Source of the DNA: Ignavibacteriota bacterium
GTDB taxonomy: Bacteria > Bacteroidota > Ignavibacteria > Tepidaquicellales > Tepidaquicellaceae
Direction of reading: 5' to 3'
DNA: 64,000 bases
Assembly: GCA_016218085.1 (NCBI GenBank)
Contig: JACREY010000008.1
Coordinates: 310,001 to 374,000 of the forward strand
Under the pieces are notes generated by a model that was not told where the DNA came from, made no database searches, and saw only the letters and a program-made list of their open reading frames with translations. The translations under genes and the position numbers were made by a program. This document shows positions 3,345 to 17,977 of the stretch, one piece after another (the first letter of the stretch is position 1; each line of letters starts with the position of its first letter).

Positions 3345-3383
3345 TTAAAGAAAGCTCTTGCACTTAATAAAGATTGTGTTCTT

Positions 3384-3480
3384 AACTTTATAACCTTATA
3401 ACTTTATAACCTTATAACTTTATAAACTTATTACGCTCTTACTTTATAAACTTTACAAACTTTACAAACTTTATAAACTA
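3384..3480. repeat. AT-rich tandem minisatellite (16-bp then 9-bp units)
   Basis: Three copies of a 16-bp unit (AACTTTATAACCTTAT, third copy with one change) occupy 3384-3431. A degenerate 16-mer follows, then three 9-bp units AAACTTTA(C/T) at 3148+200 to 3174+200 (that is 3348-3374 shifted: the units lie at 3448-3474), ending against the start codon of the UPF0316 gene. The 9-mer looks like a core of the 16-mer, suggesting slippage. It occupies the 5' untranslated region of the downstream gene. Confidence 0.85.
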
Positions 3481-3481
3481 A

Positions 3482-4000
3482 ATGGACTTATCTTTCCTGT
3501 TAGGTGCTCTCCTCATTATGAGTCTCCGCATTATTGACGTTTCACTTGGTACTATACGTACTCTTGTCACCGTTCAGGGGAAAAAATATATTGCCGCCGC
3601 TATTGGATTCTTCGAAGTCACTATCTGGGTAATTGCTATAAGACATATTATGCAGAATCTCGATAACCTCTGGAATATTCTCGGTTATTCCACCGGCTTT
3701 GCTCTCGGCACTATCATCGGCATCTCACTCGAACAGATGCTCGGCTCGGGTTATCTTCAGCTCTATATTTTCTCTATGAACTATGCGGACAGTATCGCAG
3801 ATGAACTCAGAAAAAATAAAATCGGCGTAACACTCCTTCCGGGCGAAGGAGGAAGCGGGGGAGTCGCTATACTGATGGTTCTTATAACCCGGAAAAGAAA
3901 AAAAGAACTTCTTAAAATTATAGATAACATTGACCCGTCTGCGTTCATCTCCGTCCAGACAGCTACCCCGTATAGGGGCTATATACATTCTGGAAAGTAA
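3482..4000 (+). CDS. UPF0316 / DUF2179-type membrane protein
   Basis: 172-residue protein with about three N-terminal membrane helices (residues 3-22, 38-60, 66-90) and a soluble alpha/beta C-terminal half (about 100-172) of the DUF2179 type. The N-terminal pattern MSLRIIDVSLGTIRTL is characteristic of UPF0316 proteins. No biochemical function is established for the family. The ATG at 3482 directly abuts an AT-rich repeat tract, leaving no obvious Shine-Dalgarno sequence. The next gene, terC, is convergent. Confidence 0.85.
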   Translation: MDLSFLLGALLIMSLRIIDVSLGTIRTLVTVQGKKYIAAAIGFFEVTIWVIAIRHIMQNLDNLWNILGYSTGFALGTIIGISLEQMLGSGYLQLYIFSMNYADSIADELRKNKIGVTLLPGEGGSGGVAILMVLITRKRKKELLKIIDNIDPSAFISVQTATPYRGYIHSGK

Positions 4001-4087
4001 TAATTAATTTATTTTAAAAAAAAGAGAGATAAAACGCTCTCCGCTCTTAACATCAAAAAAACCTTTTCTTTCCGCTTTTTCCGCGTG

Positions 4088-5011
4088 CTATGATTTTGCT
4101 CTTTTCTTCTTCATAAACATCGAAGCGAGCATAGATGATGATAAAACAAGAAGCAGCACTGCAAGCGATATGCCGACTGAAATCGGAAAAAAATCCGCAA
4201 TCAGCATCTTTATTCCGATAAATACAAGAATGATAGATAATCCTAACCTCAGGTATTTGAATTTATCCATCACTCCCGCCAGTGCGAAATAAAGCGAGCG
4301 AAGCCCGAGAATTGCAAATGCATTTGAAGTGAATACTATGAATGTGTCCTGTGTTATTGCAAGTATAGCGGGAATGGAATCGAATGCAAAAACCAGGTCG
4401 GTCGTCTCTACTACCAGCAGTACTATGAAAAGTGGAGTTGCTAATAGTCCTGTTTTTTTCTTGATGAAAAACCTGTCCTTCTCGTAGTTCTGTGAAACCG
4501 GAAATATTTTCTTGAAAAATTTTACAACCGGATTTTTATCCGGCTCGATTTTCTCCTCTTTGTGAAATGCCATCTTTGCTCCTGTGAATACAAGGAATGC
4601 ACCGAATAATAGCAATATCCAGTGGAATTTTACTATCAGTGCCGCTCCTAAAGCAATGAGTGCGCCTCTCATCAGCAAAGCTCCCACTATCCCGTAATAT
4701 AAAACCTTGTGCTGGTATTTTCCGGGTACGTTGAAAAATGAGAAAAGCAAAACAAATACGAAAATGTTATCCACGCTTAGCGCCTTCTCGAGTAAATATC
4801 CGGTGAGGAATTCCATCCCTTTCTCGTATCCGGCAAAATGAAATACTCCGAGATTGAATATTACTGCGAGAGATATCCATATGCCGCTCCATAGAAGCGC
4901 TTCTTTATAATGAATTTCATGGGACTTTCTGTTAAAAACTCCTAAATCTATCCCGAGCATTATTATTAAAAATATTAAAAATCCTACCCAGCCCGTAAAT
5001 CCTATTTCCAC
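4088..5011 (-). CDS. TerC/Alx family membrane protein
   Basis: 307-residue polytopic protein with about nine membrane helices. Hallmarks are the segment LEKALSVDNIFVFVLLF (near residues 75-90) and the later VETTDLVFAFDSIPAILAIT; their acidic intramembrane residues are thought to bind metal. The family includes E. coli Alx and is associated with Mn homeostasis and with metalation of secreted proteins. Full length compared with Alx (about 320). It is transcribed alone and is divergent from the DUF3298 gene, with about 100 bp between their starts. Confidence 0.9.
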   Translation of the reverse strand: MEIGFTGWVGFLIFLIIMLGIDLGVFNRKSHEIHYKEALLWSGIWISLAVIFNLGVFHFAGYEKGMEFLTGYLLEKALSVDNIFVFVLLFSFFNVPGKYQHKVLYYGIVGALLMRGALIALGAALIVKFHWILLLFGAFLVFTGAKMAFHKEEKIEPDKNPVVKFFKKIFPVSQNYEKDRFFIKKKTGLLATPLFIVLLVVETTDLVFAFDSIPAILAITQDTFIVFTSNAFAILGLRSLYFALAGVMDKFKYLRLGLSIILVFIGIKMLIADFFPISVGISLAVLLLVLSSSMLASMFMKKKRAKS

Positions 5012-5115
5012 TTTATATTTTTTATTTGCTTGAATTTAATTAAAAAGTAAAGCATTTGATATGTATTTATATTGATAATTTAAAATCATATTTTTACACA
5101 GCAAAATTAATTTAT

Positions 5116-5853
5116 ATGAATAAAATGAAAATAACTTTAGCATTAATCCTGGTTTTTATTGCCTCTGCAGTTTTTGCACAGGAATATAAAATGATTACAA
5201 AGGAAATTAAAGACAGCTCTGAGGCAGGAAAATACTGGTATTCCGCAAAGTATCCGCAGGTCGATGGAATGCCGAATAAGCAGATTCAAAGCGCGATTAA
5301 CGAATCAATTTTTAAAACCGTCGATAAATGCCTCGGTGATTTCAGGAAGGATATGAGCGAGTGGGAAGTGCCTTATGAGCTTACTGAAGTTAACAGCTTT
5401 ATGGATATAAACTATGAAAGCTTCGTCCTGAACGAAGACCTGTTCAGCTTTTCATTCGAAGTATATACGTATTATGCAGGCGCCGCCCATCCTAACAGCT
5501 ATACAATTTCACATAACTGGAATATGAAAAATGGAAAATTCCTGACATTCAGCGGACTGTTTAAAAAAAATTCCGGGTATCTTGAAAAAATTTCCAAATT
5601 CTGCATAGAAAACCTGAAACTGCAGGCAAAAATGAGCGATTATGAAATGATTGATGATATGCTTCAGTCAGGCGCCGGCCCGAACGATTCAAACTTTATG
5701 AATTTCAATTTTTTTCAAAAAGGAATGCTCATTACTTTCGACAGGTATCAGGTAGCACCTTATGCCGCAGGTACTCAATACGTTCTAATTCCTTACATAG
5801 CCTTTTATGAAATGCTGACAGAAGACTGCTTCCTGAATAAATTCAACTATTAG
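5116..5853 (+). CDS. Exported DUF3298 (RsiV/PdaC C-terminal-like) protein
   Basis: The reading frame extends to 5056, but ATG 5116 gives a clean signal peptide (MNKMKITLALILVFIASAVFAQ), so that start is chosen; 5125 is also possible. The mature protein is about 225 residues. It carries YYAGAAHPN and later FDRYQVAPYAAGTQYV..PY, the two hallmark blocks of the DUF3298 domain found in RsiV (lysozyme-sensing anti-sigma factor) and PdaC-like proteins. It lacks a transmembrane anchor or anti-sigma domain, so it is probably a periplasmic binding protein of unknown ligand. Confidence 0.75.
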   Translation: MNKMKITLALILVFIASAVFAQEYKMITKEIKDSSEAGKYWYSAKYPQVDGMPNKQIQSAINESIFKTVDKCLGDFRKDMSEWEVPYELTEVNSFMDINYESFVLNEDLFSFSFEVYTYYAGAAHPNSYTISHNWNMKNGKFLTFSGLFKKNSGYLEKISKFCIENLKLQAKMSDYEMIDDMLQSGAGPNDSNFMNFNFFQKGMLITFDRYQVAPYAAGTQYVLIPYIAFYEMLTEDCFLNKFNY

Positions 5854-5878
5854 AAATTAATAAAACGAAAAAAACAAA

Positions 5879-5992
5879 TGCGGACGGATGGAATGGCACG
5901 TACTCGACTGGAACACAAACGCAATCAGATTCTACAAAAACCTCGGAGCAGAAGAACTAAAAGAATGGAAGTATTTTAGGGTGAGTTTATGA
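5879..5992 (+). pseudogene. C-terminal remnant of a GNAT acetyltransferase
   Basis: The plus-strand frame here has no start codon and a stop 18 bp upstream of the homologous part. It reads CGRMEWHVLDWN, then NAIRFYKNLGAEEL, then KEWKYFRV and a stop at 5990. This is the C-terminal acetyl-CoA-binding helix and last strands of a spermidine/amino-acid type GNAT N-acetyltransferase. About 130 N-terminal residues are missing; upstream is the end of an unrelated gene. It abuts, and by 3 bp overlaps, the end of the methyltransferase gene, so it marks the left edge of the restriction-modification island. I read the remnant by eye; no frameshift is visible inside it. Confidence 0.75.
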
Positions 5993-7300
5993 GATTTTAT
6001 TATTTTTTTTCTTTTTATTTGTTTTATATAGTTTTTTATTTTTTTCGCAAACAACTAAAGTTTCAATTCCAAAAGGTTTTTCGCATACAATTATATATTC
6101 TTTAGTCATAGTGCTTCGTTTTATTCCTGTTTGATTTGACGGTGAATTTAAGCTTGGCATAGATTTATTTGCAAGAAATCTTTCATAAGTTAGTAAATGT
6201 CTAAAACCATTTTCTTCGAATTTTTCAGCAATAAACTGATCAGTTGGTAAAATAACATCTTTTACCATTCTATTACCTACAATGTAAATAATTTTTCCAC
6301 CTTTTTTAACACTTTTTGAAACATCAATTATTGATTTTTCCAAATCATAATAAAAAGCTGAAACCTCTAAAGCCCTTTTTGGAGATTCCTTTTCAATTTG
6401 ATTAATGTAAAATGATAAAATTCCTTTTGAATATTTTTCTTTAGCAATTTTGCCACCCATTAGCATAGTATCTATTTTTCGTGCATATGCTATTCCTAAC
6501 CATTCATTTGTTAAAGTTGAAAATTGACCGTATGCTACTGTAGTTCTACTATCACCATATGGAGGGCTAGTTAGTACAACATCAAAATATTTTTCTTTTT
6601 TCGGAAATTCGGAATAACCAAAATTAAATTTTGCATTATCCAATAATGGATAATAATAATTTTCATAAATAAAAATTGCTTTATCTAATTTAGCAGAAAA
6701 TATATCAATGCAATTAGGATTAAACTTTTTCATTGCATCTTCTTTCATTCTGAATAATTTAAATTCACCATTTCGAGTATATGAACTCTCTCTAATGGTT
6801 TCAGAATATGGAACCATCATAAATCTACGTATATTCTCATTTGAAATTGTAAATATGAGTGATTTAATTATTGCCAATTCTATCTTACTTTGTTCAGGAA
6901 ACCAAAAATCTATATTATAAACATTAGGTATATCTAGTTTTACATCAATTTCATTATTAATTGTATATTTGTATAATTTATCTTTTATAATACTTACATT
7001 TTCTTTCAAATCTGATGGATTTATTTTAATAAATTTTGCACTTGTAATTAAAATTGCTAGAGGATTAATATCAAATCCTTCCATTTCTTTTAATCCTCTA
7101 TCTAAACCCACAATAAATGATGAGCCTGATCCGCAATAAGGATCTAATAATTTTCCACTTTTTATATTTAATTCCTTAAATATTTCTATTCCGATTTGTG
7201 GAATCATAGTAGCTGGATACCTATGTAAATTTGGGTAGCTTGTACCATATGATTGACCAGTAAAATCATATTTATTATTTCTTAATATTCTGTATTTCAT
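5987..7300 (-). CDS. Type II DNA methyltransferase, probable N4-cytosine
   Basis: 437-residue modification enzyme. An AdoMet-binding motif I, LLDPYCGSGSS (DPYCGSG at residues 53-59), comes first, preceded by a region X-like stretch (LHRYPATMIPQI). The catalytic motif IV TSPPYGDSRTT lies near residue 245. SPPY rather than D/NPPY favours N4-cytosine methylation, as in M.MvaI and M.BcnI; the motif order is permuted relative to classical beta-class enzymes. It overlaps the upstream endonuclease gene by ATGA, so the two are translationally coupled. Base composition is clearly more AT-rich than the flanking core genes, indicating acquisition. Target sequence is not readable from the protein. Confidence 0.85.
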   Translation of the reverse strand: MKYRILRNNKYDFTGQSYGTSYPNLHRYPATMIPQIGIEIFKELNIKSGKLLDPYCGSGSSFIVGLDRGLKEMEGFDINPLAILITSAKFIKINPSDLKENVSIIKDKLYKYTINNEIDVKLDIPNVYNIDFWFPEQSKIELAIIKSLIFTISNENIRRFMMVPYSETIRESSYTRNGEFKLFRMKEDAMKKFNPNCIDIFSAKLDKAIFIYENYYYPLLDNAKFNFGYSEFPKKEKYFDVVLTSPPYGDSRTTVAYGQFSTLTNEWLGIAYARKIDTMLMGGKIAKEKYSKGILSFYINQIEKESPKRALEVSAFYYDLEKSIIDVSKSVKKGGKIIYIVGNRMVKDVILPTDQFIAEKFEENGFRHLLTYERFLANKSMPSLNSPSNQTGIKRSTMTKEYIIVCEKPFGIETLVVCEKNKKLYKTNKKKKNNKIS

Positions 7301-7980
7301 GCAATAATCTTCGTTTCTTTAAATAAATAAATTAATTTATTTTCTTTAGCTCTGAATCCTGTACCATGATTTCTAGCCATTGTACCTTTTTCATGTAATC
7401 GTAAATCAACTTGAATATTTTGTTCTCTGAATTGATCATATAATAATTCAGGTGAAGTCCCTTTTAATAATCTTGCATTCGTAAATCTAAAATATTCAAT
7501 ACCATCTCTTTCTTCAGTTTCAGCATTGACTAATATTAAAGCAGGTATTTTACTTTCAAATCTTTTTGATAATGTTTTTAAATCCCAATTAACAATTAAC
7601 TTACCGGATTTATGTAAAATTGATATTTTATCTTTTTCAACATCAAGAAATAAACCAGCACTATTAGGTTTAAATGACATTGTATAATACAATCCAATTC
7701 TTCCGTTGCTATCTTTACTTCCATATTTTTTAATTGCTTCCAATGGTTTCATTATCCAACATTTTCTATTGAATGTAAAAAGAGTAATCATACTTGTTGC
7801 ACCACTTCTATGCGCTTTAAGTTCAGCACCTTTTATATCAGGCAGAGCAATATTATTTTCTTTCATCCCTAATTCTTGTTCCAAAGTATGACCTATGCCA
7901 GTTGGACCTTTTCTATGCGATTTTACATATCCTTTTTTCTTCAAGATTTTAAATTTCTCAACAAACTTATCAATATTCAT
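7297..7980 (-). CDS. MvaI/BcnI-family type II restriction endonuclease
   Basis: 227-residue protein. It starts with a basic region leading to GPTGIGHTLEQELG (about 25-38), a signature of the MvaI/BcnI family. The proposed active site follows as D48-x4-E53-x-K55 (in PDIKGAELKAHR), the arrangement seen in this monomeric endonuclease family, which cuts CCWGG or CCSGG. Its length fits (MvaI and BcnI are about 240-250). The gene is first in the minus-strand pair and its stop overlaps the methyltransferase start. The specificity is a guess from family membership only. Very AT-rich composition marks it as recently acquired. Confidence 0.85.
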   Translation of the reverse strand: MNIDKFVEKFKILKKKGYVKSHRKGPTGIGHTLEQELGMKENNIALPDIKGAELKAHRSGATSMITLFTFNRKCWIMKPLEAIKKYGSKDSNGRIGLYYTMSFKPNSAGLFLDVEKDKISILHKSGKLIVNWDLKTLSKRFESKIPALILVNAETEERDGIEYFRFTNARLLKGTSPELLYDQFREQNIQVDLRLHEKGTMARNHGTGFRAKENKLIYLFKETKIIA

Positions 7981-8380
7981 TAGATTATTTTTTTAATTAA
8001 TTTAAATTACATCATTATGTTGATTTGTTCAAGTAAGATAATTCCTTTTTTTTTATTGTTTTTATTTTACTATAATCACTATTACATCATCCTAACACCC
8101 ACTCTTTTCCATCCCGATTAATTCACTGGCTGAATTTATCGCTTGACTGTTTTCAATAATTTAAATAGTTTTATTACGGGGATTCGGTTAGCCGATTATT
8201 TCCGTTATGAATAAAGTTATGAGGAGAGCAAAAAATCATCATTCCATTCCTTTTTGCCTGAAATGATTCGGTTAGTCATTTTTCATTCATATTCTTTTGA
8301 ATCCCGTCCGTTTTCAGGTATTTTAATAAAATAGTCAGTTTTCTATATGCTTTAAGCGGTTGAATTTCAACCTTTTATCG
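7981..8380. other. Non-coding stretch upstream of the restriction gene and repeat array
   Basis: No supportable gene. It holds the presumed promoter of the minus-strand restriction operon in the very AT-rich part up to about 8090. The remainder contains two copies of GATTCGGTTAG(C/T)C at 8181-8193 and 8265-8277 (84 bp apart), a small stem GCAAAAA/TTTTTGC (8228-8234 with 8251-8257), a second crossing pairing AATCAT/ATGATT (8234-8239 with 8263-8268), and a 7-bp palindrome GGTTGAA-T-TTCAACC at 8358-8372. These could belong to a structured RNA or a degraded element; nothing proves either. Confidence 0.4.
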
Positions 8381-8661
8381 TTATTGCAAAATTTCGCTAA
8401 AATGAGGCTTTCCGCAGGCGGAAAGCATTAACTAAGTGGCGGAACGTCTTAACTAAGTGGCGGAACGTCTCAACTAAGCGGCGGAACGTCTTAACTAAGC
8501 GGCGGAACGTCTCAACTAAGCGGCGGAACGCTTTAACTAAGTGGCGGAACGTATCAACTAAGTGGCGGAACGTCTTAACTAAGCGGCGGAATGCCTCAAC
8601 TAAATGGCGGAATGTCTTAACTAAGCGGCGGAATGCATTAACTATGCGATTTTTGCAATAA
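8381..8661. repeat. Ten-copy 21-bp tandem array bounded by inverted repeats
   Basis: Ten contiguous 21-bp units fill 8430-8639 with no length variation; the consensus is AACTAAG(T/C)GGCGGAACGTCTY. A partial unit precedes them (8416-8429) and another follows (8640-8644). Variation is mostly transitions, and the last two bases alternate TT/TC along much of the array, hinting at growth by 42-bp dimers. The array is richer in GC than its surroundings. Outside it lie inverted repeats TTATTGCAAAATTTCGC (8381-8397) and its near-complement at 8646-8661, plus a 9-bp palindrome GCTTTCCGC-AG-GCGGAAAGC (8407-8426). There are no spacers, so it is not CRISPR. Frames are open through it on both strands but without ATG, GTG or TTG starts. 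Confidence 0.9.
8407..8426. repeat. 9-bp palindrome at left edge of 21-bp array
   Basis: GCTTTCCGC (8407-8415) and GCGGAAAGC (8418-8426) form a perfect inverted pair around AG. The right arm shares GGCGGAA with the repeat unit, so the array seems to start from, or merge into, this palindrome. It could be a hairpin in RNA or single-stranded DNA, or a protein-binding site. Confidence 0.75.
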
Positions 8662-8805
8662 AAATGCGATATTTGGGCTTTAAGGAAAGGAGGTTCGCTA
8701 AAAAAACACCGTTTTTGGCATTTTCAGAAAGCAAATTGAAGATTTTATGCCTGAAAGCAAATTTTAACAAATCAATTTAAAAACTTATTTAAGGAGCTTT
8801 AATTT

Positions 8806-9759
8806 ATGGCAAAAAAATCGGTTAGACTTTACACAGTAAGGGATGATGTAATGCTGGACGGTGCAGACAGGTTTAATGCCCAGTACACATCCGATAAAGC
8901 GGATTTCGAGGGATTCAATATCGTGATGTTCCCTTTGACATTCGGAGCAACATTCGAAGCGCAGATAGATGCGGCAAGAGCCTGCCTTAGAGATATGGTT
9001 GTGCTTGATGAACAGGCAGAGGAAACCGCAGAGCTTGGCACAAAGATGAAAGAATGCTGTGATTATTTTCAGGCAATGAAGCCCGTAATCGAATCAGTTT
9101 TTCCAAATAAGCCCGCTATATGGAATCAGTTCGGATTTAATGATTATGAAAAAGCGCGAAAGTCCCAGGGAAAAATGATTCAGTTTATGGAAATGCTTTT
9201 TGAAGTTTCGGATAAGTACAAAGTGGAATTGATAGCAGGCGGATTTACGCAGGTGAAAATAGATAAAATCGAAACTCTTGCCGGAGAACTGCGTCAGGAA
9301 CAGATTGACCAGGAGGTTGCAAAGAAGGAAAGACCTGTGAAAACTCAGGAGAGAATTAAACTGATGAATATTGTTTGGGCTACAATGCAGACAATTAATA
9401 AAGCATCGAAGGCGGTTTATCAGGGAAACTATGCAAAGCTTGCTGAGTATGAGCTTCCGAGCAATTCGCAGGGTGGAACTGTCCCATTCACCGGAACGGT
9501 TGATCCGAGTCAGGTTGTGAATATAATTGAAATGGAATTTACGGAGGATACGGAATTGAGAATAAAAAATACGGGTACTTATTCTCTTTTATTCGGTCTT
9601 GCGCCGGATATTGCCTCACACACTGATACTCTTAAAGTTGACCCGGGAATAACAATGACCGTAACGGCAAATGTTCTGGGTGATATAAATAATAAATTTC
9701 TGAATGTGTTTAATCCCGCAGAAGTGCAGGGAAGCTATGAAGTTCTGGTGATGATATAA
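8806..9759 (+). CDS. Hypothetical two-domain protein next to the 21-bp array
   Basis: 317 residues with no signal peptide and no membrane helix. I do not recognise a named family. Residues 1-210 look largely helical with a charged middle (DQEVAKKERPVKTQERIK). A Gly/Ser/Thr/Pro linker (about 215-230) follows, then a C-terminal beta-rich domain of about 85 residues (IEMEFTEDTELRIKNTGTYSLLFG...) that resembles small immunoglobulin-like or carbohydrate-binding folds in pattern. A strong Shine-Dalgarno AAGGAG (8791-8796) fixes the ATG at 8806. Base composition is like the core genome, unlike the AT-rich neighbours on both sides. The repeat array ends about 145 bp upstream and may lie in its 5' region. 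Confidence 0.7.
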   Translation: MAKKSVRLYTVRDDVMLDGADRFNAQYTSDKADFEGFNIVMFPLTFGATFEAQIDAARACLRDMVVLDEQAEETAELGTKMKECCDYFQAMKPVIESVFPNKPAIWNQFGFNDYEKARKSQGKMIQFMEMLFEVSDKYKVELIAGGFTQVKIDKIETLAGELRQEQIDQEVAKKERPVKTQERIKLMNIVWATMQTINKASKAVYQGNYAKLAEYELPSNSQGGTVPFTGTVDPSQVVNIIEMEFTEDTELRIKNTGTYSLLFGLAPDIASHTDTLKVDPGITMTVTANVLGDINNKFLNVFNPAEVQGSYEVLVMI

Positions 9760-9765
9760 AATATT

Positions 9766-9810
9766 TTTTTCTTTCCCGTTGGTGATTCTTTCATCAGCGG
9801 GAGAGAGAAT
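9766..9810. terminator. Long imperfect hairpin after the hypothetical gene
   Basis: CCCGTTGGTGA (9775-9785) pairs with TCATCAGCGGG (9791-9801) using two G-U pairs. The pairing extends outward through a pyrimidine run (9766-9774) matched to a purine run (9802-9810). A U-run does not follow the stem, so it may stabilise the mRNA end rather than terminate by itself. Confidence 0.5.
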
Positions 9811-9936
9811 AATAAGTGAAAAATACCTGCATTACTATTATTTTATTTATTATTTATATTTATTTAGTTAATAATTATAATTATTCTTAAATGGAAATCT
9901 GCAGTATTTTTATGTTAAATTAATTTTAATATATCT

Positions 9937-10398
9937 ATGAAAACTTTTGATAGAAAATTTTTGTTTGGTATATTAGTTGGGGTTTTAAGTTTATTAATAG
10001 TTATTTTTATATATGATAAAATTTTTATTGATAATAATACACCAATTTATTTGAAAAAAAGCAAAGATAGTACTCTTACTTTAAACAATGTTGACTTTAC
10101 CTCATTGAATAATATCTTTGAAGAGAAATTATATTCAATTAACAAAAGAATTGATGATATACTAATTTTTGGGGGTATAATAATCACTCTATTATTAGCG
10201 ATTAATATAAGCGTTTTCGTAAAAGCTGCTAATGAAGTTGATAGTCATTTTAATGAACATTTTGAAGAATATAGAAAAAAAGTCGAAGAATCTGCCTCGA
10301 AAGTTACAAGTTTACTAAATAAAGCAGAGGCTGATGCAAATCTTATCAGTCAACATAAAGAAAAATATTTTCAAGAAAAACAAAGTATACAAAGATGA
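9937..10398 (+). CDS. Small two-helix membrane protein with coiled-coil tail
   Basis: 153 residues, family not recognised. One membrane helix near residues 8-27, an extracytoplasmic loop of about 40 residues, a second helix near 69-92, then a charged helical tail (about 95-153) of coiled-coil character (EYRKKVEESASKVTSLLNKAEADA). It is the first of three very AT-rich ORFs, and its stop overlaps the next start by ATGA, so the two are coupled. Composition strongly differs from the core genes, suggesting horizontal acquisition. It might act as a membrane sensor or anchor for its partners; that is speculation. Confidence 0.65.
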   Translation: MKTFDRKFLFGILVGVLSLLIVIFIYDKIFIDNNTPIYLKKSKDSTLTLNNVDFTSLNNIFEEKLYSINKRIDDILIFGGIIITLLLAINISVFVKAANEVDSHFNEHFEEYRKKVEESASKVTSLLNKAEADANLISQHKEKYFQEKQSIQR

Positions 10399-10679
10399 TT
10401 ATAGAAAATCCAACATATTCAATAGAAGAACTTAATATATTAGAGAAAAAAGTTATTAATAATTTAGCAGAAATAAAAGATTACGAAAAAATTGATTCTA
10501 TTTTGAACTCTATGGGATTCAATAATATCATAAAGGATAAGATGAGAGAATTTAATATTAATAGTTATAGTGAATATTTACTTGAAAGAAGAATAAAAAA
10601 AATGGATATAGCCGCAATTACAGGGACTATACTTGGAGTAATTGCTGCTTTAAAAAAAATATTAACAAATAAAATTTAA
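10395..10679 (+). CDS. Small protein with C-terminal hydrophobic helix
   Basis: 94 residues, not recognised. The first 70 residues are charged and helical (ENPTYSIEELNILEKK...). The last 25 include MDIAAITGTILGVIAALKK, a hydrophobic helix that could insert in a membrane, with a lysine-rich end. It overlaps the preceding gene by 4 bp and ends 4 bp before the next start, so the three are one transcription unit. The size and C-terminal hydrophobic helix are compatible with a small membrane-active protein, but no catalytic motif is visible. Confidence 0.6.
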   Translation: MIIENPTYSIEELNILEKKVINNLAEIKDYEKIDSILNSMGFNNIIKDKMREFNINSYSEYLLERRIKKMDIAAITGTILGVIAALKKILTNKI

Positions 10680-10683
10680 TAAT

Positions 10684-10965
10684 ATGAATATCTTTGTTGT
10701 TTTCGAAATCTCAGGCGATAATATTGAAAATATAAAACCTATATTAAGAAATCTTGGATATTATGATTATTGGATTTCAAATGAATTAAGATATGATTTG
10801 CCAAATAATTGTATGTGGAAACAGAATAGTAGTTTAGAAAATGGTAAAACAGAAGTTGAAAATGCAATTGGTACACGATTTTTAGCAAATAATAATATCA
10901 GATTAGAAAAATTAATTGTATTGCAAGCAACACCATGGACTGGAAAAGCAACTGTAAGTTTATAA
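10684..10965 (+). CDS. Small hypothetical protein, third of AT-rich cassette
   Basis: 93 residues, not recognised. The opening MNIFVVFEISGDNIENIKPILRNLGYYDYWIS has the beta-alpha-beta rhythm of small ferredoxin-like proteins, a fold shared with Cas2/VapD-type proteins and many others; this is only a rhythm, not a motif match. The central CMWKQNSS region and the end (LEKLIVLQATPWTGKATVSL) suggest further beta strands. It starts 4 bp after the preceding gene, clearly in the same operon. No catalytic residues can be named. Confidence 0.6.
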   Translation: MNIFVVFEISGDNIENIKPILRNLGYYDYWISNELRYDLPNNCMWKQNSSLENGKTEVENAIGTRFLANNNIRLEKLIVLQATPWTGKATVSL

Positions 10966-11048
10966 ATTTTTAATAATAATAAAAACGGCGTATCGTCTAA
11001 GTTTTCGTTTCAAAGAATGCCACGTAAGGTTTCAATATCAGAATAAAA

Positions 11049-11088
11049 AATAAAGAGTAATAAAGAAAGCTCTTTATTACTCTTTATT
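11049..11088. terminator. Bidirectional terminator between cassette and fatty-acid operon
   Basis: A perfect 17-bp stem (11049-11065 with 11072-11088; core AAAGAGTAATAAAG) with a 6-nt loop. It has A-rich sequence on the left and T-rich on the right, as expected for a terminator serving both converging transcription units. Confidence 0.75.
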
Positions 11089-11107
11089 CTCTAATCATTA
11101 TTAATTG

Positions 11108-11818
11108 TTATATATCTCCTTTTACAGGTCTGATGTAAATATCTTCTATTAACACTTTCTTGGGCTGCTGGTAAACTTCAAGCGCTATATGCGCAACTTC
11201 AGCAGGGGATAGCATCCTGTTTTTGTATTTCTGCCTTGTCTTGCTGTCCCACATCGCTGTATCTGTGGCTCCCGGCAATATATTGCTTATCTTTATGTTG
11301 AATCTTCTTGTTTCTTCCCTCAGACTGTTTGTCATAGCAAGCAGGCCTGCTTTTGATGCTGAATAAACTGAGCTGCTTTCATATACGGTATTTGCTGCAA
11401 CCGATAGAATGTTTATGATGTGTCCTCTTTTATTCTTTATCATCTGCGGAATTACGGATTTCATGCAGAGGAATGCCCCTCTTAAATTTATGCTCATCAC
11501 GTAGTCGAAATCATATACTTTGGTATCTGTGAATGATTTAAATACTGTTACTCCTGCATTGTTTACAAGACAGTCTATCTTTCCGTACTTTTCCCTTATT
11601 CTTTTGGTTGTAATCTGAACACTCCTTTCTGATGCAACATTGCATACGAAGGCGGATGCTTCCCTCCCTGCAAATTTAATCTCGCTTGCAAGACTGACCA
11701 GTCTTGATTTTCTGCGCGCTGTAGCTACTATTATGTGCCCGGCTTTGGAAAATTCCATGCACATTTCTCTTCCAATGCCTGTCGAAGCTCCGGTAATCCA
11801 GATTACCTTTTCGCTCAT
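11108..11818 (-). CDS. Short-chain dehydrogenase/reductase (SDR)
   Basis: 236-residue classical SDR with NAD(P)-binding TGASTGIG at residues 10-17, NNAG near 87-90, and the catalytic Ser..Tyr-x3-Lys triad (ILSVAANTVYESSSVYSASKAG). R/K residues after the second strand (ARRKSR) favour NADP. It is the last gene of the minus-strand operon that holds fabD and two fabG genes, 39 bp after the nearer fabG. Unlike those, it lacks the C-terminal DGG motif of FabG, so it may act on another ketone or aldehyde. Substrate unknown. Confidence 0.85.
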   Translation of the reverse strand: MSEKVIWITGASTGIGREMCMEFSKAGHIIVATARRKSRLVSLASEIKFAGREASAFVCNVASERSVQITTKRIREKYGKIDCLVNNAGVTVFKSFTDTKVYDFDYVMSINLRGAFLCMKSVIPQMIKNKRGHIINILSVAANTVYESSSVYSASKAGLLAMTNSLREETRRFNIKISNILPGATDTAMWDSKTRQKYKNRMLSPAEVAHIALEVYQQPKKVLIEDIYIRPVKGDI

Positions 11819-11857
11819 AAGTTAAGAATTAATTAAGGAAACTCTTATTTGCTTTTT

Positions 11858-12607
11858 TTACATTACCATTCCGCCGTCTATGCAAAGCACCTGCCCGGTT
11901 ATATATCCGGCTTTATCCGAAGATAGGAATGCAACAACTCCCGCTACTTCTTCCGGCTTTGAAGGACGTTTCAAAGGTATTATACTTAAAAAAGCATTCT
12001 TTTGCTCTTCAGACAGCGTTGCAGTCATTTCTGTCTCTACAAATCCGGGCGCAACTGCATTTACGTTAATGTTCCTACCTGCAAATTCCTTCGCAACTGA
12101 TTTTGTAAGCCCTATTAATCCTGCCTTGGACGCAGAATAATTTGTCTGACCTGCATTTCCCATTACACCGACAACCGAACTTATATTCACTATTTTACCG
12201 CTTCTCTGCTTTGCCATTACTCTCGATACTGCCTTAATCGTATTGAATGCGCCTTTAAGGTTAACCGTCAGCACCGCATCCCAGTCTTCTTCGCTCATTC
12301 TTATCATCAGTTTGTCTCTTGTTATACCCGCGTTATTCACGAGGATATCTATTCTCCCGAATTCCTTTGCAACTTCATCACAGATATTCTGTACTTCATT
12401 TGTTTTTGTTATGTCGATAGTTTTTAATGCTACTTTTCTTCCCTTGGCTGTCTGTTCGCTTACATAGGAATCTATATCCTCTGGAAAAACTTTATCAAAA
12501 ATGATAACATCGGCTCCTTCGTTTATAAATTCGGTAACTATCGCTCTGCCTATACCTCTGCCTCCGCCTGTGACAATTGCAATTTTATCTTGTAATAAAC
12601 TTCCCAT
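11858..12607 (-). CDS. fabG: 3-oxoacyl-ACP reductase
   Basis: 249-residue SDR that reduces 3-oxoacyl-ACP with NADPH in fatty-acid elongation. It shows TGGGRGIGRA at 14-23, NNAG, the catalytic block NISSVVGVMGNAGQTNYSASKAG with Ser, Tyr and Lys in place, and the FabG-type end YITGQVLCIDGGMVM. Length and motifs match E. coli FabG (244). It follows a divergent fabG copy by 7 bp and sits four genes after fabD in the same operon. This copy is the better candidate for the housekeeping enzyme. Confidence 0.93.
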   Translation of the reverse strand: MGSLLQDKIAIVTGGGRGIGRAIVTEFINEGADVIIFDKVFPEDIDSYVSEQTAKGRKVALKTIDITKTNEVQNICDEVAKEFGRIDILVNNAGITRDKLMIRMSEEDWDAVLTVNLKGAFNTIKAVSRVMAKQRSGKIVNISSVVGVMGNAGQTNYSASKAGLIGLTKSVAKEFAGRNINVNAVAPGFVETEMTATLSEEQKNAFLSIIPLKRPSKPEEVAGVVAFLSSDKAGYITGQVLCIDGGMVM

Positions 12608-12614
12608 TTTTTAT

Positions 12615-13370
12615 TTATATTTTAGTTTTATAATATTTAATTTCCTCTTTTTTGAGCTGAGTCGCCTCTACTATAAAATTCTGCCCTGTGATTAAATCAG
12701 ATACATCCGATGACAGCATTGCAATGAAATCAGCTACTTTGTCAGGCTTTGCGGCCGACTTTTTAGTTGATTTGAATATTGCCTGCTTCTGCTCCTCCGA
12801 TAGCTTCGCAGTCATATCGGTTTCAACATAACCGGGTGAGACTGCATTAACCTGAATATTATAAGCAGATAATTCTTTTGCAAGTGCTTTTGTAAGACCT
12901 ATCATCCCTGCCTTCGACGCAACGTAATTAGACTGCCCGGCATTTCCTGAAGTCGCAACAACTGAACTGACATTGATGATTTTACCGCCGTGATGCTTTA
13001 TCATGCTCTTAAGCACCTCTTTCGTAAATAGAAAAGTGGCCTTCAGATTTGTGTTGATTACTGAATCCCAGCTTTCCTCCGACATTCGCATTATCAGACC
13101 GTCCTTTGTTATTCCTGCATTGTTGATAAGAACATCGATTTTGCCGAATTTCTTGATTGCCTTATCTACTACAATTTTAATCCTTCGTGAATTGGAAGAG
13201 TCGCACTTGAAATATAAAATCTTTTTTGGCTTGAAATAATTGGGGTCAACCCTTGACTTGTATGTAATTACTACATTAGCCCCTAAGCGGGAGAACTTCT
13301 CTGCTATGGCTCGGCCGATTCCTCTGGAACCACCGGTAATGAATACGGTTTTACCTCTAAATTCCTGCAT
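12615..13370 (-). CDS. Divergent FabG-like SDR
   Basis: 251-residue paralogue of the following fabG. The cofactor motif ITGGSRGIGRA and the catalytic Ser/Tyr/Lys (NVSSVVATSGNAGQSNYVASKAG) are intact. The C-terminus, however, departs from FabG: after LITGQN it runs FIVEATQLKKEEIKYYK instead of the usual V..DGG, so the cofactor- and tetramer-interface end is changed. It starts 11 bp after the DUF3109 gene and ends 7 bp before fabG. It may be a specialised reductase or a partner subunit of its neighbour. Both copies conserve the active site, so both are probably enzymes. Confidence 0.85.
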   Translation of the reverse strand: MQEFRGKTVFITGGSRGIGRAIAEKFSRLGANVVITYKSRVDPNYFKPKKILYFKCDSSNSRRIKIVVDKAIKKFGKIDVLINNAGITKDGLIMRMSEESWDSVINTNLKATFLFTKEVLKSMIKHHGGKIINVSSVVATSGNAGQSNYVASKAGMIGLTKALAKELSAYNIQVNAVSPGYVETDMTAKLSEEQKQAIFKSTKKSAAKPDKVADFIAMLSSDVSDLITGQNFIVEATQLKKEEIKYYKTKI

Positions 13371-13381
13371 TAAGGGTGATT

Positions 13382-14005
13382 TTATTTTGTTTCTTTATTC
13401 TTGTAATGATGTACGAAATAATCCTTAAGGTAATTGTAGCCTTCCTGCCCGAGTATATAAATTATTTCTTCTGTCATTGCTTCGAAAACCGTATGCACGA
13501 AATTCTCTTTTTTATGTATTCCGCAGTAATCAAGCCTTTCTGCGTGTGAATCATCATATGTTAATACATTATCAACGATGGTTAACGGATACATTATGCA
13601 GTACTTGGGTTTAATTTCCCATTTGTGATAACCTTTTTTCTCTGCCGCAATCTGAAGTGAACAGAAATTATTCAGACCTTTAAAGACACACTGCTCATTT
13701 CCGAATTTTGTTTTATATGTTTCTGTTCCTATTGCCTCTCCGGAGGGGAAGTCATGATCAATTTCAATATCCTTTTCAAACCACTTTGCTGAATCTTTTA
13801 CCTGCTGCGCATCCATTACGTCTATTACGTCTTTTTCGTGGTCAAGTATCACATGCTTGAATTCCTTATCCATGTAAACGCCCCAGTCACAGCACTGTCC
13901 GCTGCAAATCGGTATATCGCATTTAGGCACGAATCCCTGCGTAAAAATAACAGGGTCGATTTTTATTCCGTTTATTTCTATCGGGTATTTTTTTTCTTCT
14001 GACAT
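13382..14005 (-). CDS. DUF3109 cysteine-rich protein
   Basis: 207-residue cytoplasmic protein of the DUF3109 family, widespread in Bacteroidota. The cysteine cluster CDIPICSGQCCDWGVY (about 29-44), with further Cys near CVFKG, FCSLQ, KYCIMYPL and LDYCGIHKK, recalls the YkgJ-type metal- or Fe-S-binding arrangement. Function is not known. It lies between fabD (8 bp away) and the fabG pair, so it is co-transcribed with fatty-acid genes; whether it takes part in that pathway is open. Confidence 0.85.
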   Translation of the reverse strand: MSEEKKYPIEINGIKIDPVIFTQGFVPKCDIPICSGQCCDWGVYMDKEFKHVILDHEKDVIDVMDAQQVKDSAKWFEKDIEIDHDFPSGEAIGTETYKTKFGNEQCVFKGLNNFCSLQIAAEKKGYHKWEIKPKYCIMYPLTIVDNVLTYDDSHAERLDYCGIHKKENFVHTVFEAMTEEIIYILGQEGYNYLKDYFVHHYKNKETK

Positions 14006-14013
14006 CAGCTTGA

Positions 14014-14934
14014 TTATATTTTTTCCAAATCCTCTGCAGTAGAAATATTCAACGTCTCTGCATCAGCTTTAATTTTCTTTATTAGTCCTGTTAAAACCTT
14101 TCCCGAACCTATTTCATAGAATTTAGTAACTCCGGATTCAATCATATTTCTTATCGTAGTTTCCCACCTGACGGGGGAGACTAACTGCTTTGAAAGACAT
14201 TCTCTTATCTTTTCCTTGTCATTCTTCGGAAGACCGTCAACATTTGTGTAAACGCTGATTACGGGATTTTGAATTTCAAGCTCTTCAAGTGCTTTCCTTA
14301 AATCCGCATCAGATGTTCTCATAAGCTCTGAATGAAATGCTCCGCTTACTTCAAGCCTCTTTGCCATTCTGCATTTATAAGGTTCTACCTTTGCAACTTC
14401 AACAGCTTTATCGATTGCATCAACATCACCGGAAATCACTATCTGGCCGGGACAGTTGAAATTTGCAGGCTGTGCAATTCCGGATTCGGAAACACTATCG
14501 CAAATTGCCTTAACCTGCTCTTCATTTAATCCAATAAGCGCAGCCATCGTGCCTTTCTGGATTTCACCTGACCTCTTCATCAGCGAGCCTCTCGTCTTTA
14601 CAAGTCCGAGCCCTGTTTCAAAGCTGAATGATCTTGCATATACATTTGCTGTGTATTCACCTAGCGAGTGTCCTGCCGTGCAGTCTGCTTTTATTTTATC
14701 GCCGATTAAACTTGTAAGAACAAATGAATGAACGAATAATGCGGGTTGTGTGTGGTTTGTCTGCTTTAAATCATCAGCGGGACCTTCGAAAGAAAGAGTG
14801 CTTAACTTCATTCCCATTATCTCATCCGCTGTATCATATAATCTTTTTGCTTCCGGATATTTATCATATAAATCCTTTCCCATTCCTACAGATTGTGAGC
14901 CCTGTCCGGGAAATAAAAATGCAATTTTACTCAT
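14014..14934 (-). CDS. fabD: Malonyl-CoA:ACP transacylase
   Basis: 306 residues. Transfers malonyl from CoA to acyl carrier protein. It shows the N-terminal FPGQGSQ (8-14), the nucleophile Ser90 in AGHSLGEY, the active-site His near 201 in SGAFHSELM, and a conserved Gln in the oxyanion loop. Full length compared with E. coli FabD (309). It sits in a minus-strand operon with fabG copies; fabH, fabF and acpP are not in the window. It is preceded by pyrB with 24 bp between. Confidence 0.95.
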   Translation of the reverse strand: MSKIAFLFPGQGSQSVGMGKDLYDKYPEAKRLYDTADEIMGMKLSTLSFEGPADDLKQTNHTQPALFVHSFVLTSLIGDKIKADCTAGHSLGEYTANVYARSFSFETGLGLVKTRGSLMKRSGEIQKGTMAALIGLNEEQVKAICDSVSESGIAQPANFNCPGQIVISGDVDAIDKAVEVAKVEPYKCRMAKRLEVSGAFHSELMRTSDADLRKALEELEIQNPVISVYTNVDGLPKNDKEKIRECLSKQLVSPVRWETTIRNMIESGVTKFYEIGSGKVLTGLIKKIKADAETLNISTAEDLEKI

Positions 14935-14958
14935 AATAAAATTTTAAATTTAATAATT

Positions 14959-16035
14959 TTAATAACGCAATATTTCTTCTTCAATTCTGAACAAATAAGC
15001 AATCAATGCAGTTCTTATCCACATTCCGTTCCTTTCCTGCCTCCAGTACATTGCCCTTGCATCATCATCTACTGCAACATCAATTTCCTGTCTTCTCGGA
15101 AGAGGATGCATTATAATTGCGCTTTTTTTCATCAGTTTCAAATGCTCTTTTCTAAGATGGTACTTTGAGTAATCTATATTCTTCGATTCATTGTTGATGT
15201 CATATTCATCCTGAATTCTTGTCATGTAAACAGCATCTGCCTCCGGAAGGAATTTGTACAGCTCATTTGATTCTTTAAATGAAACTCTGTGCTTTTTTAA
15301 AAAAGCTTTTACATCATCACCGATTTTCAGGTAATCTGGAGCAGAATAAATTATTTTTACATTTTTGTAATTCTTCAGGAGGTAAGAAAGTGAACGCACA
15401 GTTCTGCCTCTTTTAAGGTCACCTACCATTATTATGGTTTTATTGTCAATCCCACCCTTATCCTGAAAGGAAAGGTACAAAGTATATAAATCCAGCAGCG
15501 CCTGTGTAGGGTGCTGGTCCTTGCCGGAACCCCCGTTGATTATGCTTATAGGTCTCCTGGTCTTGTTTAACATCCAGGCAGATTTTTCTGCCATGCCTTC
15601 TTCGAAATGCCTCATTATTATCATGTCTGCGTATGAACTGAATGTTCTTACTGTATCTTCAGGTGTCTCTCCCTTTAATTCTGATGAAGTTGATGTTGAT
15701 CGGATTTCGCTGACTTTCATCCCGAGTATATAGCATGCGCTCTGAAATGAAACAAATGTCCTTGTAGAAGGCTGCACGAAATAAAGCATTGCCCTTTTAT
15801 GTGAAAGGGTAGTCTGAAGCCAGTCAAGACCGCCTTTTTCCTTTGCAACTTTTCTTATTTTATTTGCAAGATTGAAAAGAATGTTCAGGTTCTGCGGATT
15901 CAACTGCTGTGCAAAAAGGCAGTCAAACATTCTTCCTTCTTTTTCAAAATAATTTATTTTCTTATCGAGCGGCTGGGCATAAAAATCTTCCCATGATAAT
16001 TTTGATAAATCCTTGCTTACTTTTTTAATTTTCAT
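14959..16035 (-). CDS. pyrB: Aspartate carbamoyltransferase, long variant
   Basis: 358 residues, about 45 longer at the N-terminus than E. coli PyrB. It joins carbamoyl phosphate to aspartate, the committed step of pyrimidine synthesis. Carbamoyl-phosphate motif PSTRTFVSF (near 93-101) has Phe where STRTR usually has the second Arg. HPTQALLDLY and HPLPRRQEI are conserved, and the latter favours ATCase over ornithine transcarbamylase (HCLPA). No regulatory pyrI is next to it. Immediate neighbours are argF and, further up, carbamate kinase, so three carbamoyl-phosphate enzymes share one operon. The orthology is good; exact kinetics cannot be inferred. Confidence 0.88.
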   Translation of the reverse strand: MKIKKVSKDLSKLSWEDFYAQPLDKKINYFEKEGRMFDCLFAQQLNPQNLNILFNLANKIRKVAKEKGGLDWLQTTLSHKRAMLYFVQPSTRTFVSFQSACYILGMKVSEIRSTSTSSELKGETPEDTVRTFSSYADMIIMRHFEEGMAEKSAWMLNKTRRPISIINGGSGKDQHPTQALLDLYTLYLSFQDKGGIDNKTIIMVGDLKRGRTVRSLSYLLKNYKNVKIIYSAPDYLKIGDDVKAFLKKHRVSFKESNELYKFLPEADAVYMTRIQDEYDINNESKNIDYSKYHLRKEHLKLMKKSAIIMHPLPRRQEIDVAVDDDARAMYWRQERNGMWIRTALIAYLFRIEEEILRY

Positions 16036-16061
16036 TTTGGATATTTTAATGTTTTTATTTT

Positions 16062-16982
16062 TTACATTAATAATTTCATGATTGCTTTTTGTACGTGCAT
16101 CCTGTTTTCAGCCTGGTCAAATACTATTGAATTAGGTCCGTCTATAACTTCGTCTGTTATTTCTTCGCCCCTGTGTGCCGGCAGGCAATGCATTACGAGA
16201 ACATCCTTCTTTGCTTTTTTCATAAGTTCTCCGTTCAGCTGGAAGTCTTTTAAATCTTTCTTCCTCTTTTCGTTTTCTTCTTCCTGTCCCATGCTTACCC
16301 AAACGTCTGTATAAATTACGTCTGCATCTGCAGTTGCATCATATGCGTTTTCCTTTGCGTTTATTTTTGAACCTGTAACTTTTGCAACTTCATGAGCTTC
16401 ATCAACTACCCATTGCAAAGGTTTGTATCCGATAGGGGATGCATAGTTAATGTGCATTCCGACTTTTACACAGGCTTGAATAAGCGAATGAAGTACGTTG
16501 TTCCCGTCTCCTATGTAAGCCATTGTCAGTCCTTTTAATTTACCTCTTTTTTCATAGACAGTGAATATATCGCATAATGCCTGGCACGGATGGTCAAAAT
16601 CCGTTAAACCGTTTATAACAGGAACGGTTGCATATTTAGCTAAATCCAAAACTGTCTGATGGCTGAATGTTCTTGCCATTATACCGTTTACAAATCTTGA
16701 TAATACTTTTGCAGTATCGTGTATTGTTTCTCCTCTGCCCATCTGCAGGTCTTTAGGGGAGAAAAACATTCCAAGTCCGCCAAGCTGGTAGATTCCTGTT
16801 TCAAATGATACTCTTGTTCTAGTGGAAGATTTTTCAAATATCATTGCAAGTGTTTTTCCTTCAAGATGTTTGGTGTTTCTCGGACCCTTTTTTAATGATT
16901 CGGTTTCTTTTAAAATCAGGTTCACTTCTTCGATAGATAGCTCGCTGATTGATATTAAGTCTTTACGGTTAAGTTTTTCCAT
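16062..16982 (-). CDS. argF: Ornithine carbamoyltransferase
   Basis: 306 residues, standard length. It makes citrulline from ornithine and carbamoyl phosphate (or the reverse in catabolism). Motifs are SSTRTRVSFE (near 53-62), DHPCQALCDIF, and HCLPAHRGEEI with the catalytic Cys. These distinguish it from the ATCase next to it, which has HPLPR. It lies between carbamate kinase (38 bp away) and pyrB (26 bp away). No arginine deiminase or argininosuccinate genes are present here, so whether it is anabolic or catabolic cannot be decided from context. Confidence 0.93.
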   Translation of the reverse strand: MEKLNRKDLISISELSIEEVNLILKETESLKKGPRNTKHLEGKTLAMIFEKSSTRTRVSFETGIYQLGGLGMFFSPKDLQMGRGETIHDTAKVLSRFVNGIMARTFSHQTVLDLAKYATVPVINGLTDFDHPCQALCDIFTVYEKRGKLKGLTMAYIGDGNNVLHSLIQACVKVGMHINYASPIGYKPLQWVVDEAHEVAKVTGSKINAKENAYDATADADVIYTDVWVSMGQEEENEKRKKDLKDFQLNGELMKKAKKDVLVMHCLPAHRGEEITDEVIDGPNSIVFDQAENRMHVQKAIMKLLM

Positions 16983-17020
16983 AATTTTCCTTTAAGATTT
17001 TATATTTTTAAATTTTTTGT

Positions 17021-17977
17021 TTACTGATGAATTATTGTTCCTGCACTTCCTTCAAGTGCCTCATTCAATTTTTCGATGCTTGTGATTATTGCAGTGTTAC
17101 CTGTATTCTGTACAAATTCAAGAGCCGCCTGAACTTTAGGACCCATGCTTCCCGCTGAAAAATGTCCCTGGTCAAAATATGTCTGTGCTTCATCGAGATT
17201 TAAATCTCTTAATTCTATCTGATTGGATTTCTTGAAATTTATATAACAACACTCAACATTAGTCAGTATTATAAGCTTGTCAGCCTTTAAGTCTGCTGCA
17301 AGCTGGGCTGAGGCAAGGTCTTTATCAATCACTGCTTCCATACCTCTTATTTCATTTTCCTCCGATATCCATACAGGTATTCCTCCACCACCGACTGCAA
17401 TCACTGAGTAATCACGCGCTACCAAATCGCTTATTATTCCTGCCTGCATTATTTTTACCGGTTTCGGAGATGCTACCACTCTTCTGTATCCCTTTCCCGC
17501 CGGGTCCTCCCTGAATTTCCAGTCTTTTGTTTTTAAAATTTCTAAAGTTTGCTCTTTTGTATAATAAGGACCTACGGGTTTTGATAAATCCGAGAATGCT
17601 GGATCGTTTTCGTCAACAAGTACCTGAGTTAACAAAGTCAATGTAACATTTTTCATTCCGTGTTTGTTGAATGTATTCTGCAATGCTTTCTGCAGAATGA
17701 AACCGATTTCACCCTGAGTTTCAGCCACACAAACATCGAGCGGCATCGGGGGTACTTTTGAAGATGCTTCTTCATTCTGAATTAACAGATTTCCAACTTG
17801 CGGTCCGTTTCCGTGGGTCAAAATTACACTGTATCTGGTATTCTGAAATAAAGGCATTAACTGCTCCGCTGTTATTGCAGCAGCAGCTTCTCTTTCTTCT
17901 ATTGTCCCTTTCGATTTCGAATCAAGCAGTGCATTTCCGCCTAAGGCAACAATTAATAATTCCTTCTTGTCTTCCAT
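17021..17977 (-). CDS. arcC: Carbamate kinase
   Basis: 318 residues from ATG 17977. The frame continues upstream to 18016, but those 13 residues are hydrophobic and unlike the family; the chosen start gives MEDKKELLIVALGGNALL. It reversibly forms ATP and carbamate from carbamoyl phosphate and ADP. Motifs are ALGGNALLD, LTHGNGPQVGNLL and AVGGGGIPV, and the protein belongs to the amino-acid kinase fold. It is the first gene of the operon that continues into argF and pyrB. Without arcA nearby, an anabolic role supplying carbamoyl phosphate is possible. Confidence 0.93.
   Translation of the reverse strand: MEDKKELLIVALGGNALLDSKSKGTIEEREAAAAITAEQLMPLFQNTRYSVILTHGNGPQVGNLLIQNEEASSKVPPMPLDVCVAETQGEIGFILQKALQNTFNKHGMKNVTLTLLTQVLVDENDPAFSDLSKPVGPYYTKEQTLEILKTKDWKFREDPAGKGYRRVVASPKPVKIMQAGIISDLVARDYSVIAVGGGGIPVWISEENEIRGMEAVIDKDLASAQLAADLKADKLIILTNVECCYINFKKSNQIELRDLNLDEAQTYFDQGHFSAGSMGPKVQAALEFVQNTGNTAIITSIEKLNEALEGSAGTIIHQ

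Follow-up and report, generated by a model that had tools for sequence, protein, structure and literature searches.

A candidate stand-alone Cas2/VapD/GhoS-fold protein encoded with two putative membrane proteins in a probable accessory operon of an Ignavibacteriota bacterium

Cas2, VapD, and GhoS have a common fold, and excerpts of three sources present them as a presumed ancestral link between toxin-antitoxin systems and CRISPR (PMC7438911, PMC12737573, PMC9782134). In the GhoS/GhoT system, as outlined in two of these excerpts, an RNase antitoxin with a Cas2-like fold is paired with a membrane-damaging toxin (PMC7438911, PMC9782134). Among the matches listed in a literature search covering titles and the beginnings of abstracts, GhoS/GhoT was the only case in which membrane proteins share an operon with a protein of the VapD/Cas2 fold. 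Here we describe three small genes (ORF1-3) that may represent a comparable arrangement. Our best explanation, to which we assign a probability of about 0.35, is a co-transcribed accessory trio in which ORF3, a divergent stand-alone protein of the Cas2/VapD/GhoS fold, would act in a toxin-antitoxin-like manner with one or both membrane partners.

The genes are located as follows in the window (the whole 64,000-nucleotide stretch of DNA that was analysed):

9937..10398, forward strand: ORF1 (P0001), 153 aa, with two transmembrane (TM)-like helices and a charged tail
10395..10679, forward strand: ORF2 (P0002), 94 aa, with a charged N-terminal part and a C-terminal hydrophobic helix
10684..10965, forward strand: ORF3 (P0003), 93 aa, ferredoxin-like, with an acidic residue (E8) ending strand 1

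ORF1 and ORF2 share a 4-bp ATGA overlap, and 4 bp (TAAT) separate the ORF2 stop from the ORF3 start, a spacing that suggests translational coupling of the trio. The GC content is 23.9% over 9937-10965 versus ~37-40% in the next downstream genes. Within each ORF, GC is 14-15% at codon position 3 versus 28-34% at position 1, so the three are almost certainly real coding genes. Three same-strand ORFs of at least 93 aa occurred in none of 1000 dinucleotide-preserving shuffles, and even one such ORF in only 6. Hydropathy places TM-like segments at residues 8-26 and 75-93 of ORF1, with a 48-residue loop between them and a charged C-terminal tail of 60 residues. ORF2 has one weaker C-terminal segment at 72-90 with Lys on either side, and ORF3 has none. 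An earlier note, made from the sequence alone, had described three frames overlapping or spaced by 4 bp, a composition unlike the core, and two membrane-associated products (a two-helix ORF1 and a 94-residue ORF2 with a C-terminal hydrophobic helix); its coordinates and lengths proved exact, and the GC values and hydropathy agree with the rest. Between 9700 and 11200 we counted 17 promoter-like sites versus 11.8 expected (sd 4.3), which is uninformative, and two terminator-like sites, both on the minus strand.

The trio is part of an island that also contains a restriction system, a 21-bp tandem array, and a gene for a 317-aa protein:

5854..11107, no strand: accessory island between a DUF3298 gene (5056-5853) and an SDR gene (11108-11818), edges approximate
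5987..7300, reverse strand: Type II DNA methyltransferase, partner of the endonuclease below in one restriction system (PDLC03322, E 2.3e-99)
7297..7980, reverse strand: MvaI/BcnI-family restriction endonuclease (PF15515, E 2.7e-40)
8417..8648, no strand: tandem array, 11 x 21 bp, upstream of the 317-aa island gene; beside the trio but separate from it
8806..9759, forward strand: 317-aa island gene, with a weak NCBIfam PQLLE_fam match below cut-off; likewise beside the trio but separate from it

The endonuclease and methylase genes overlap by 4 bp and have a GC content of ~25-27%; this pair, at 5987-7980, is the restriction system that the earlier note had placed near the trio. A search of 28 genomes at E <= 1e-60 recovered the SDR gene in 25, the own genome among them, and the stretch beyond it was compared in 10 of the genomes that carry it. 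In G001, from the same genus, the SDR gene is followed directly by DUF3298, TerC, DUF2179, and hisC, the genes found upstream of 5853 in the window. TerC directly follows the SDR gene in G008 and G006, and none of these four neighbours was seen in the other seven of the 10 stretches. Because the flanking genes are adjacent in G001, 5854-11107 represents ~5.2 kb of extra DNA relative to the nearest relative. We conclude that the trio is accessory and was probably acquired horizontally. No exact repeat of at least 10 bp was found between 5840-6000 and 10950-11130, the two island edges. The left edge (~5890-5980) encodes a fragment, WHVLDWNTNAIRFYKNLGAEELKEWKYFR, that by eye resembles the C-terminus of a GNAT acetyltransferase. 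No Rfam families were identified at 1-20000, and the window has no tRNA, the sole gene of this kind being a tmRNA at 39425-39784 with the tag ADYNYAMAA.

ORF3 has few relatives. One, in G019 (94 aa, 28-29% identity, E 7.4e-7), was the only relative among 58 other genomes, and a second, in G028 (97 aa, E 1.0e-7), was identified in a class-wide sample of 391 genomes. The three members found (own genome, G019, G028) all belong to one taxonomic family, that of the window. A scan of 84,980 species genomes with peptide patterns taken from A1 returned the G019 locus alone, and in a phylum-wide sample of 395 genomes the own genome was the sole convincing carrier. The 391-genome search had matches in 71 genomes at E <= 0.5, of which three (own, G019, G028) were kept as near full-length matches to small stand-alone ORFs at E 1e-7 or better. 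The others were sorted out as a group by E-value, partial length, stops, or a long frame. The first search of the 395 genomes had matches in three genomes at E <= 0.01, and only the own genome was taken as real; rejected were G419, where the match falls in a helicase-like frame of 1094 aa, and G138, where it runs across three stops. Later searches, with matches in 7 of 395 and 9 of 391 genomes at E <= 0.02 (a profile being used for the 391), added no member by the same criteria, the best match dropped there (G672, E 1.3e-4) being in a 982-aa frame. No relatives were found in viral contigs (queries P0003, A1, A2), plasmids (P0003, the G019 relative), or phages (P0003), and neither the G019 nor the G028 relative reached a family above the curated cut-off in Pfam or NCBIfam.

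At the G028 locus, a gene for a secreted-looking 72-aa peptide is followed after 90 bp by the ORF3 relative and, 1 bp further, by a gene for a 180-aa protein with one TM-like segment. The peptide gene occupies L071 6657-6875. At the G019 locus, a 247-aa protein with three TM-like segments is encoded 320 bp before the ORF3 relative, and a 310-aa protein with a signal-peptide-like N-terminus 40 bp after it. A membrane-protein neighbour is thus present at all three ORF3-family loci and is tightly linked at two. This is suggestive at most, because membrane proteins are common and so are chance neighbours. Neither of the two other loci encodes a homologue of ORF1 or ORF2, and BLASTP of ORF1 and ORF2 against the 180-, 72-, and 247-aa neighbours detected no similarity (best E 1.8). 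The earlier note had proposed looking for the same trio in other genomes and had held that homologues found only as unlinked genes would count against a module. The set is not conserved: in these genomes the ORF3 homologues are unlinked from the other two genes, and the point does not apply to ORF1 and ORF2, which have no convincing homologues. The lack of conservation as a set lowers the chance of a dedicated three-part system.

Searches with ORF1 and ORF2 gave no clear relatives: none was found for ORF1, and none that is convincing for ORF2. ORF1 had no match at E <= 0.01 in the 58 other genomes (same genus, family, order, and class) and no relative in viral contigs or plasmids; ORF2 had none in viral contigs, plasmids, or phages. 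Two ORF2 matches in the 58-genome search (G033 and G007, E 0.004-0.005) were set aside as chance, being inside frames that by eye are dehydrogenase-like. No curated cut-off in Pfam or NCBIfam was reached by any of the three proteins, and no match to PHROGs was better than E 0.0094. That value belongs to ORF2 and a PHROG "holin". We disregarded it along with two matches of ORF1, one to YtvI (E 0.0016) and one to a V-type ATPase subunit (E 0.004), all of them either well short of cut-offs or uncurated. Consistent with the earlier note, which had found no known defence motif, the PADLOC 2.0 anti-phage defence models gave no families for ORF1-3 at E <= 1.

What ORF3 might be is suggested mainly by predicted structure. 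The AF2 model of ORF3 has a mean pLDDT of 76.1 and a pTM of 0.68, and that of the G019 relative a pLDDT of 77.2 and a pTM of 0.67; the two are not fully independent, because each had the other sequence as its sole alignment partner. In both models, strand 1 and helix 1 are followed in order by a weak strand 2, strand 3, helix 2, and strand 4. For ORF3 this is a ferredoxin-like order with a poorly modelled second strand, in line with the ferredoxin-like rhythm reported in the earlier note. The best PDB match in Foldseek for both models is Haemophilus influenzae VapD (6zi1; probability 1.00, E 8.6e-3 for ORF3 and 2.4e-3 for the relative), with E-values that improve on the second-ranked match by factors of ~9 and ~15, respectively. 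In VIA-align, the ORF3 model scored Z 7.3 with VapD (rmsd 3.4, 75 aligned), 7.0 with GhoS (3.7, 82), and 6.8 with the VapD HP0315 (3.1, 74), and the G019 relative scored 6.6 with GhoS (4.0, 81), 6.5 with Cas2 (3.2, 71), and 6.2 with VapD (3.3, 73). These fold scores are moderate, and the VapD scores of 6.2-7.3 are tied with those of unrelated ferredoxin-like folds: CcmK comes within 1 Z unit of the top for both models, and an amidase domain does so for the ORF3 model. A comparison with viral models yielded no notable match (best E 0.037).

Sequence comparisons point in the same direction at lower strength. The best match of the family profile among 177,635 PDB sequences was 3exc, a Sulfolobus RNase that we take to be Cas2-type, at a non-significant E of 0.18, with the E/D8 of the family aligned with an Asp of 3exc. 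Using hhalign, the family profile matched 26 Cas2 proteins (taken from 30 Cas2 loci of relatives and chosen by motif) with a probability of 42.5 and a score of 26.1 over 30 columns, which span strand 1 and helix 1 only; none of 100 column shuffles reached this match (maximum 21.6). Single members scored 20.0, 21.0, and 17.8 against the Cas2 profile, compared with a control maximum of 17.17 for the first 100 aa of each of 51 other window ORFs, and are modest scores because same-profile shuffles reach 21.6. The best-scoring control was the N-terminus of ORF1. Against the GhoS sequence the family had an hhalign probability of 0.15, and 48 of 100 shuffles scored as high. This failed test speaks to the sequence family only, because Cas2 likewise has no hhalign similarity to the GhoS sequence. 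By sequence, ORF3 matched none of the described families in the libraries searched. We consider it probable that ORF3 belongs, as a divergent representative, to the fold group of Cas2, VapD, and GhoS.

Position 8 is acidic in all three family members (E, D, E), with Asp in one. At the position of the VapD Asp, Cas2 proteins have either Asp or Glu, as stated in an excerpt of PMC12737573, so E8 is no argument for lost activity. The catalytic Ser of VapD has no invariant counterpart in the three-row alignment, whose stretch from strand 2 to strand 3 is itself uncertain. ORF3 does not seem to belong to a CRISPR system. When neighbouring ORFs were read by eye, no cas genes were recognised beside ORF3-family loci, the G028 contig being only 7 kb. 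None of the three members matches PF09827 (Cas2) above cut-off, and there is no PF09827 match at E <= 0.001 in the G019 or G028 genome, both of which carry an ORF3 relative. The own genome (G000) encodes a separate Cas2 (PF09827) on another contig. Systems that combine a minimal CRISPR polymerase (mCpol) with a TM effector were also considered and set aside, given the short length of ORF3 and the lack of GGDD when its sequence was read by eye.

Given this protein and its neighbours, we propose the following mechanism. From their spacing, ORF1-3 would be co-transcribed and co-expressed. ORF1 and ORF2, as predicted from hydropathy, would sit in the membrane. ORF3, judging by its fold and acidic residue, may be a nuclease that dimerises, the pair of E8 residues forming a metal-dependent nuclease centre. 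By analogy with GhoS/GhoT or VapD pairs, ORF3 and a membrane partner would then make up a toxin-antitoxin-like pair, a role that we consider plausible. In the simplest, GhoS/GhoT-like version, ORF3 would be an RNase that cleaves the mRNA of a small membrane-damaging protein and so keeps that protein in check. ORF2 (or ORF1) would be the protein that harms the membrane; both the harm and the direction of control are conjectural. We rank the GhoS/GhoT-like version first because a membrane neighbour occurs at all three loci and is tightly linked at two, and a VapD-like version second because ORF2 is directly upstream of ORF3, as antitoxin genes are. The earlier note had suggested a toxin, immunity, or phage-defence module. 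That view gains from the foreign-looking, tight operon, from the likeness of ORF3 to VapD, Cas2, and GhoS, whose fold is used in toxin-antitoxin and defence systems, and from the island shared with restriction-modification genes; against it, the trio was not found elsewhere.

It is possible, if somewhat unlikely, that ORF3 has the Cas2/VapD fold and another role, as a regulator, scaffold, or inactive nuclease, and that ORF1 and ORF2 are unrelated, fast-evolving island genes that share its transcript. Such an arrangement would fit the two other ORF3-family loci, where ORF1 and ORF2 are lacking, as well as the presence of Glu rather than Asp at position 8 in two of three members and the lack of an invariant Ser. 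However, the 4-bp overlap and 4-bp gap favour genes that are translated together, and E8 lies within the Asp-or-Glu variation among Cas2 proteins (excerpt of PMC12737573).

Less probable, and in our view distinctly unlikely, is a VapD-like type II pair in which ORF3 is a nuclease toxin, the upstream ORF2 its antitoxin, and ORF1 either a passenger or an anchor in the membrane. Both models have VapD as their best Foldseek match, and ORF2 is 4 bp upstream of ORF3. Known VapD-like toxins, as described in an excerpt of PMC11980593, join neighbouring antitoxins of differing families, recurrent arrangements being written with the antitoxin first (A-T), and about half of VapD homologues are there said to have no specific partner. 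However, the hydrophobic C-terminal helix of ORF2 is unlike the SH3-fold or VapD-like antitoxins of that excerpt, and no ORF2-like gene is found beside the other two ORF3-family genes. That ORF3 is some other small ferredoxin-fold protein (PII-like, Lrp/RAM-like, or CcmK-like), sharing with VapD and Cas2 only a common fold, is very doubtful: CcmK, PII-like, and Lrp/AsnC-type chains do score Z 5.5-6.5 with both models and all sequence matches of ORF3 are non-significant, but VapD leads Foldseek for both models by ~9-fold and ~15-fold, and the Cas2 comparison exceeds all sequence controls with the acidic residue in register.

A more specific form of the toxin-antitoxin-like reading makes the trio a so far undescribed module for abortive infection or of the toxin-antitoxin kind. 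In it, a Cas2/VapD-fold nuclease acting independently of CRISPR would govern exchangeable membrane effectors or be governed by them, and the module would be either convergent with type V GhoS/GhoT or a deep relative of it. We regard this form as speculative and unlikely; its present support comes from predicted structural resemblance and operon architecture. If true, a non-CRISPR lineage of the Cas2/VapD/GhoS fold coupled to membrane proteins would be an intermediate arrangement, and it could tell whether GhoS/GhoT logic arose more than once.

The 317-aa gene next to the trio, together with its array, is a stronger lead than the trio itself. Matches to this gene comprise 10 rows in 7 of 28 genomes, own included. 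We compared nine rows from six genomes (L011-L016 and L018-L020, four of the rows from G003); in L016, L019, and L020 the match is partial. The tenth row, L017 (E 4.5e-4), falls in a frame of 916 aa and was left out. All nine loci have a tandem array with a period of 21 or 41/42 bp upstream of the homologue, its near edge 44-234 bp from the start (extrapolated for six loci). The array is at least 90 bp long in eight of nine loci, and L018 has two of 47-48 bp only. No such array of at least 90 bp was present anywhere in 89 control loci, which total 320 kb, overlap in part, and come mostly from other genomes; in the whole window there is a single one. Unit sequences vary from locus to locus, although L011-L013 have the core GCGGAACG-N2-TTAACT in common. 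Arrays with 55-, 69-, and 105-bp periods are also found near the homologue in L015 (G010:C100, 145-322 and 1027-1386), with an apparent inverted repeat, noted by eye, around GTTCCCAATC. Pfam gave no family above cut-off for the window protein, the PHROGs matches of four members of its family are at E 0.0025 or worse, and no relatives were found in plasmids, phages, or viral contigs. A literature search on the protein or such arrays gave nothing usable among the matches listed. Array and protein may together be a repeat-array-plus-protein unit that has not been described before, and the two helical turns of each 21-bp unit would suit DNA binding by the protein.

Returning to the trio, the closest described systems each share some of its features. 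Cas2 (PF09827) resembles ORF3 in predicted fold, in a profile match that is weak and restricted to strand 1 and helix 1, and in the acidic residue at the catalytic Asp position, whereas ORF3 is below Pfam detection and has no cas genes recognised by eye beside it. The stand-alone, Cas2/VapD-like nuclease BPSL1038 likewise has a Cas2-like ferredoxin fold outside CRISPR and an acidic residue in the same place, according to an excerpt of PMC10491678; the D-X20-SST motif given there is absent from ORF3, as read off the three-row alignment. VapD-like toxins (VapXD, VapYD, VapWD, and stand-alone VapD) are similar to ORF3 in size, in the acidic residue ending strand 1, and probably in fold (best Foldseek match for two family members), and similar to the trio in having a small gene directly upstream of the VapD-fold gene. 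They differ in that ORF3 has no significant match in the sequence searches made, no invariant Ser, and Glu for Asp in two of three members, and library searches recognised no known antitoxin family beside ORF3, ORF2 being above no cut-off. The type V system GhoS/GhoT of Escherichia coli differs in sequence, ORF3 having no similarity to GhoS, and in gene order, ghoS being 27 bp before ghoT in E. coli K-12 and ORF3 being last in the trio. GhoT, with 57 aa, is also smaller than either ORF1 or ORF2, and the N-terminal part of ORF2 is charged. Like the trio, however, GhoS/GhoT combines a small soluble ferredoxin-fold protein with a small membrane protein in one operon, and in VIA-align the GhoS fold ranks second for the ORF3 model and first for that of its relative.
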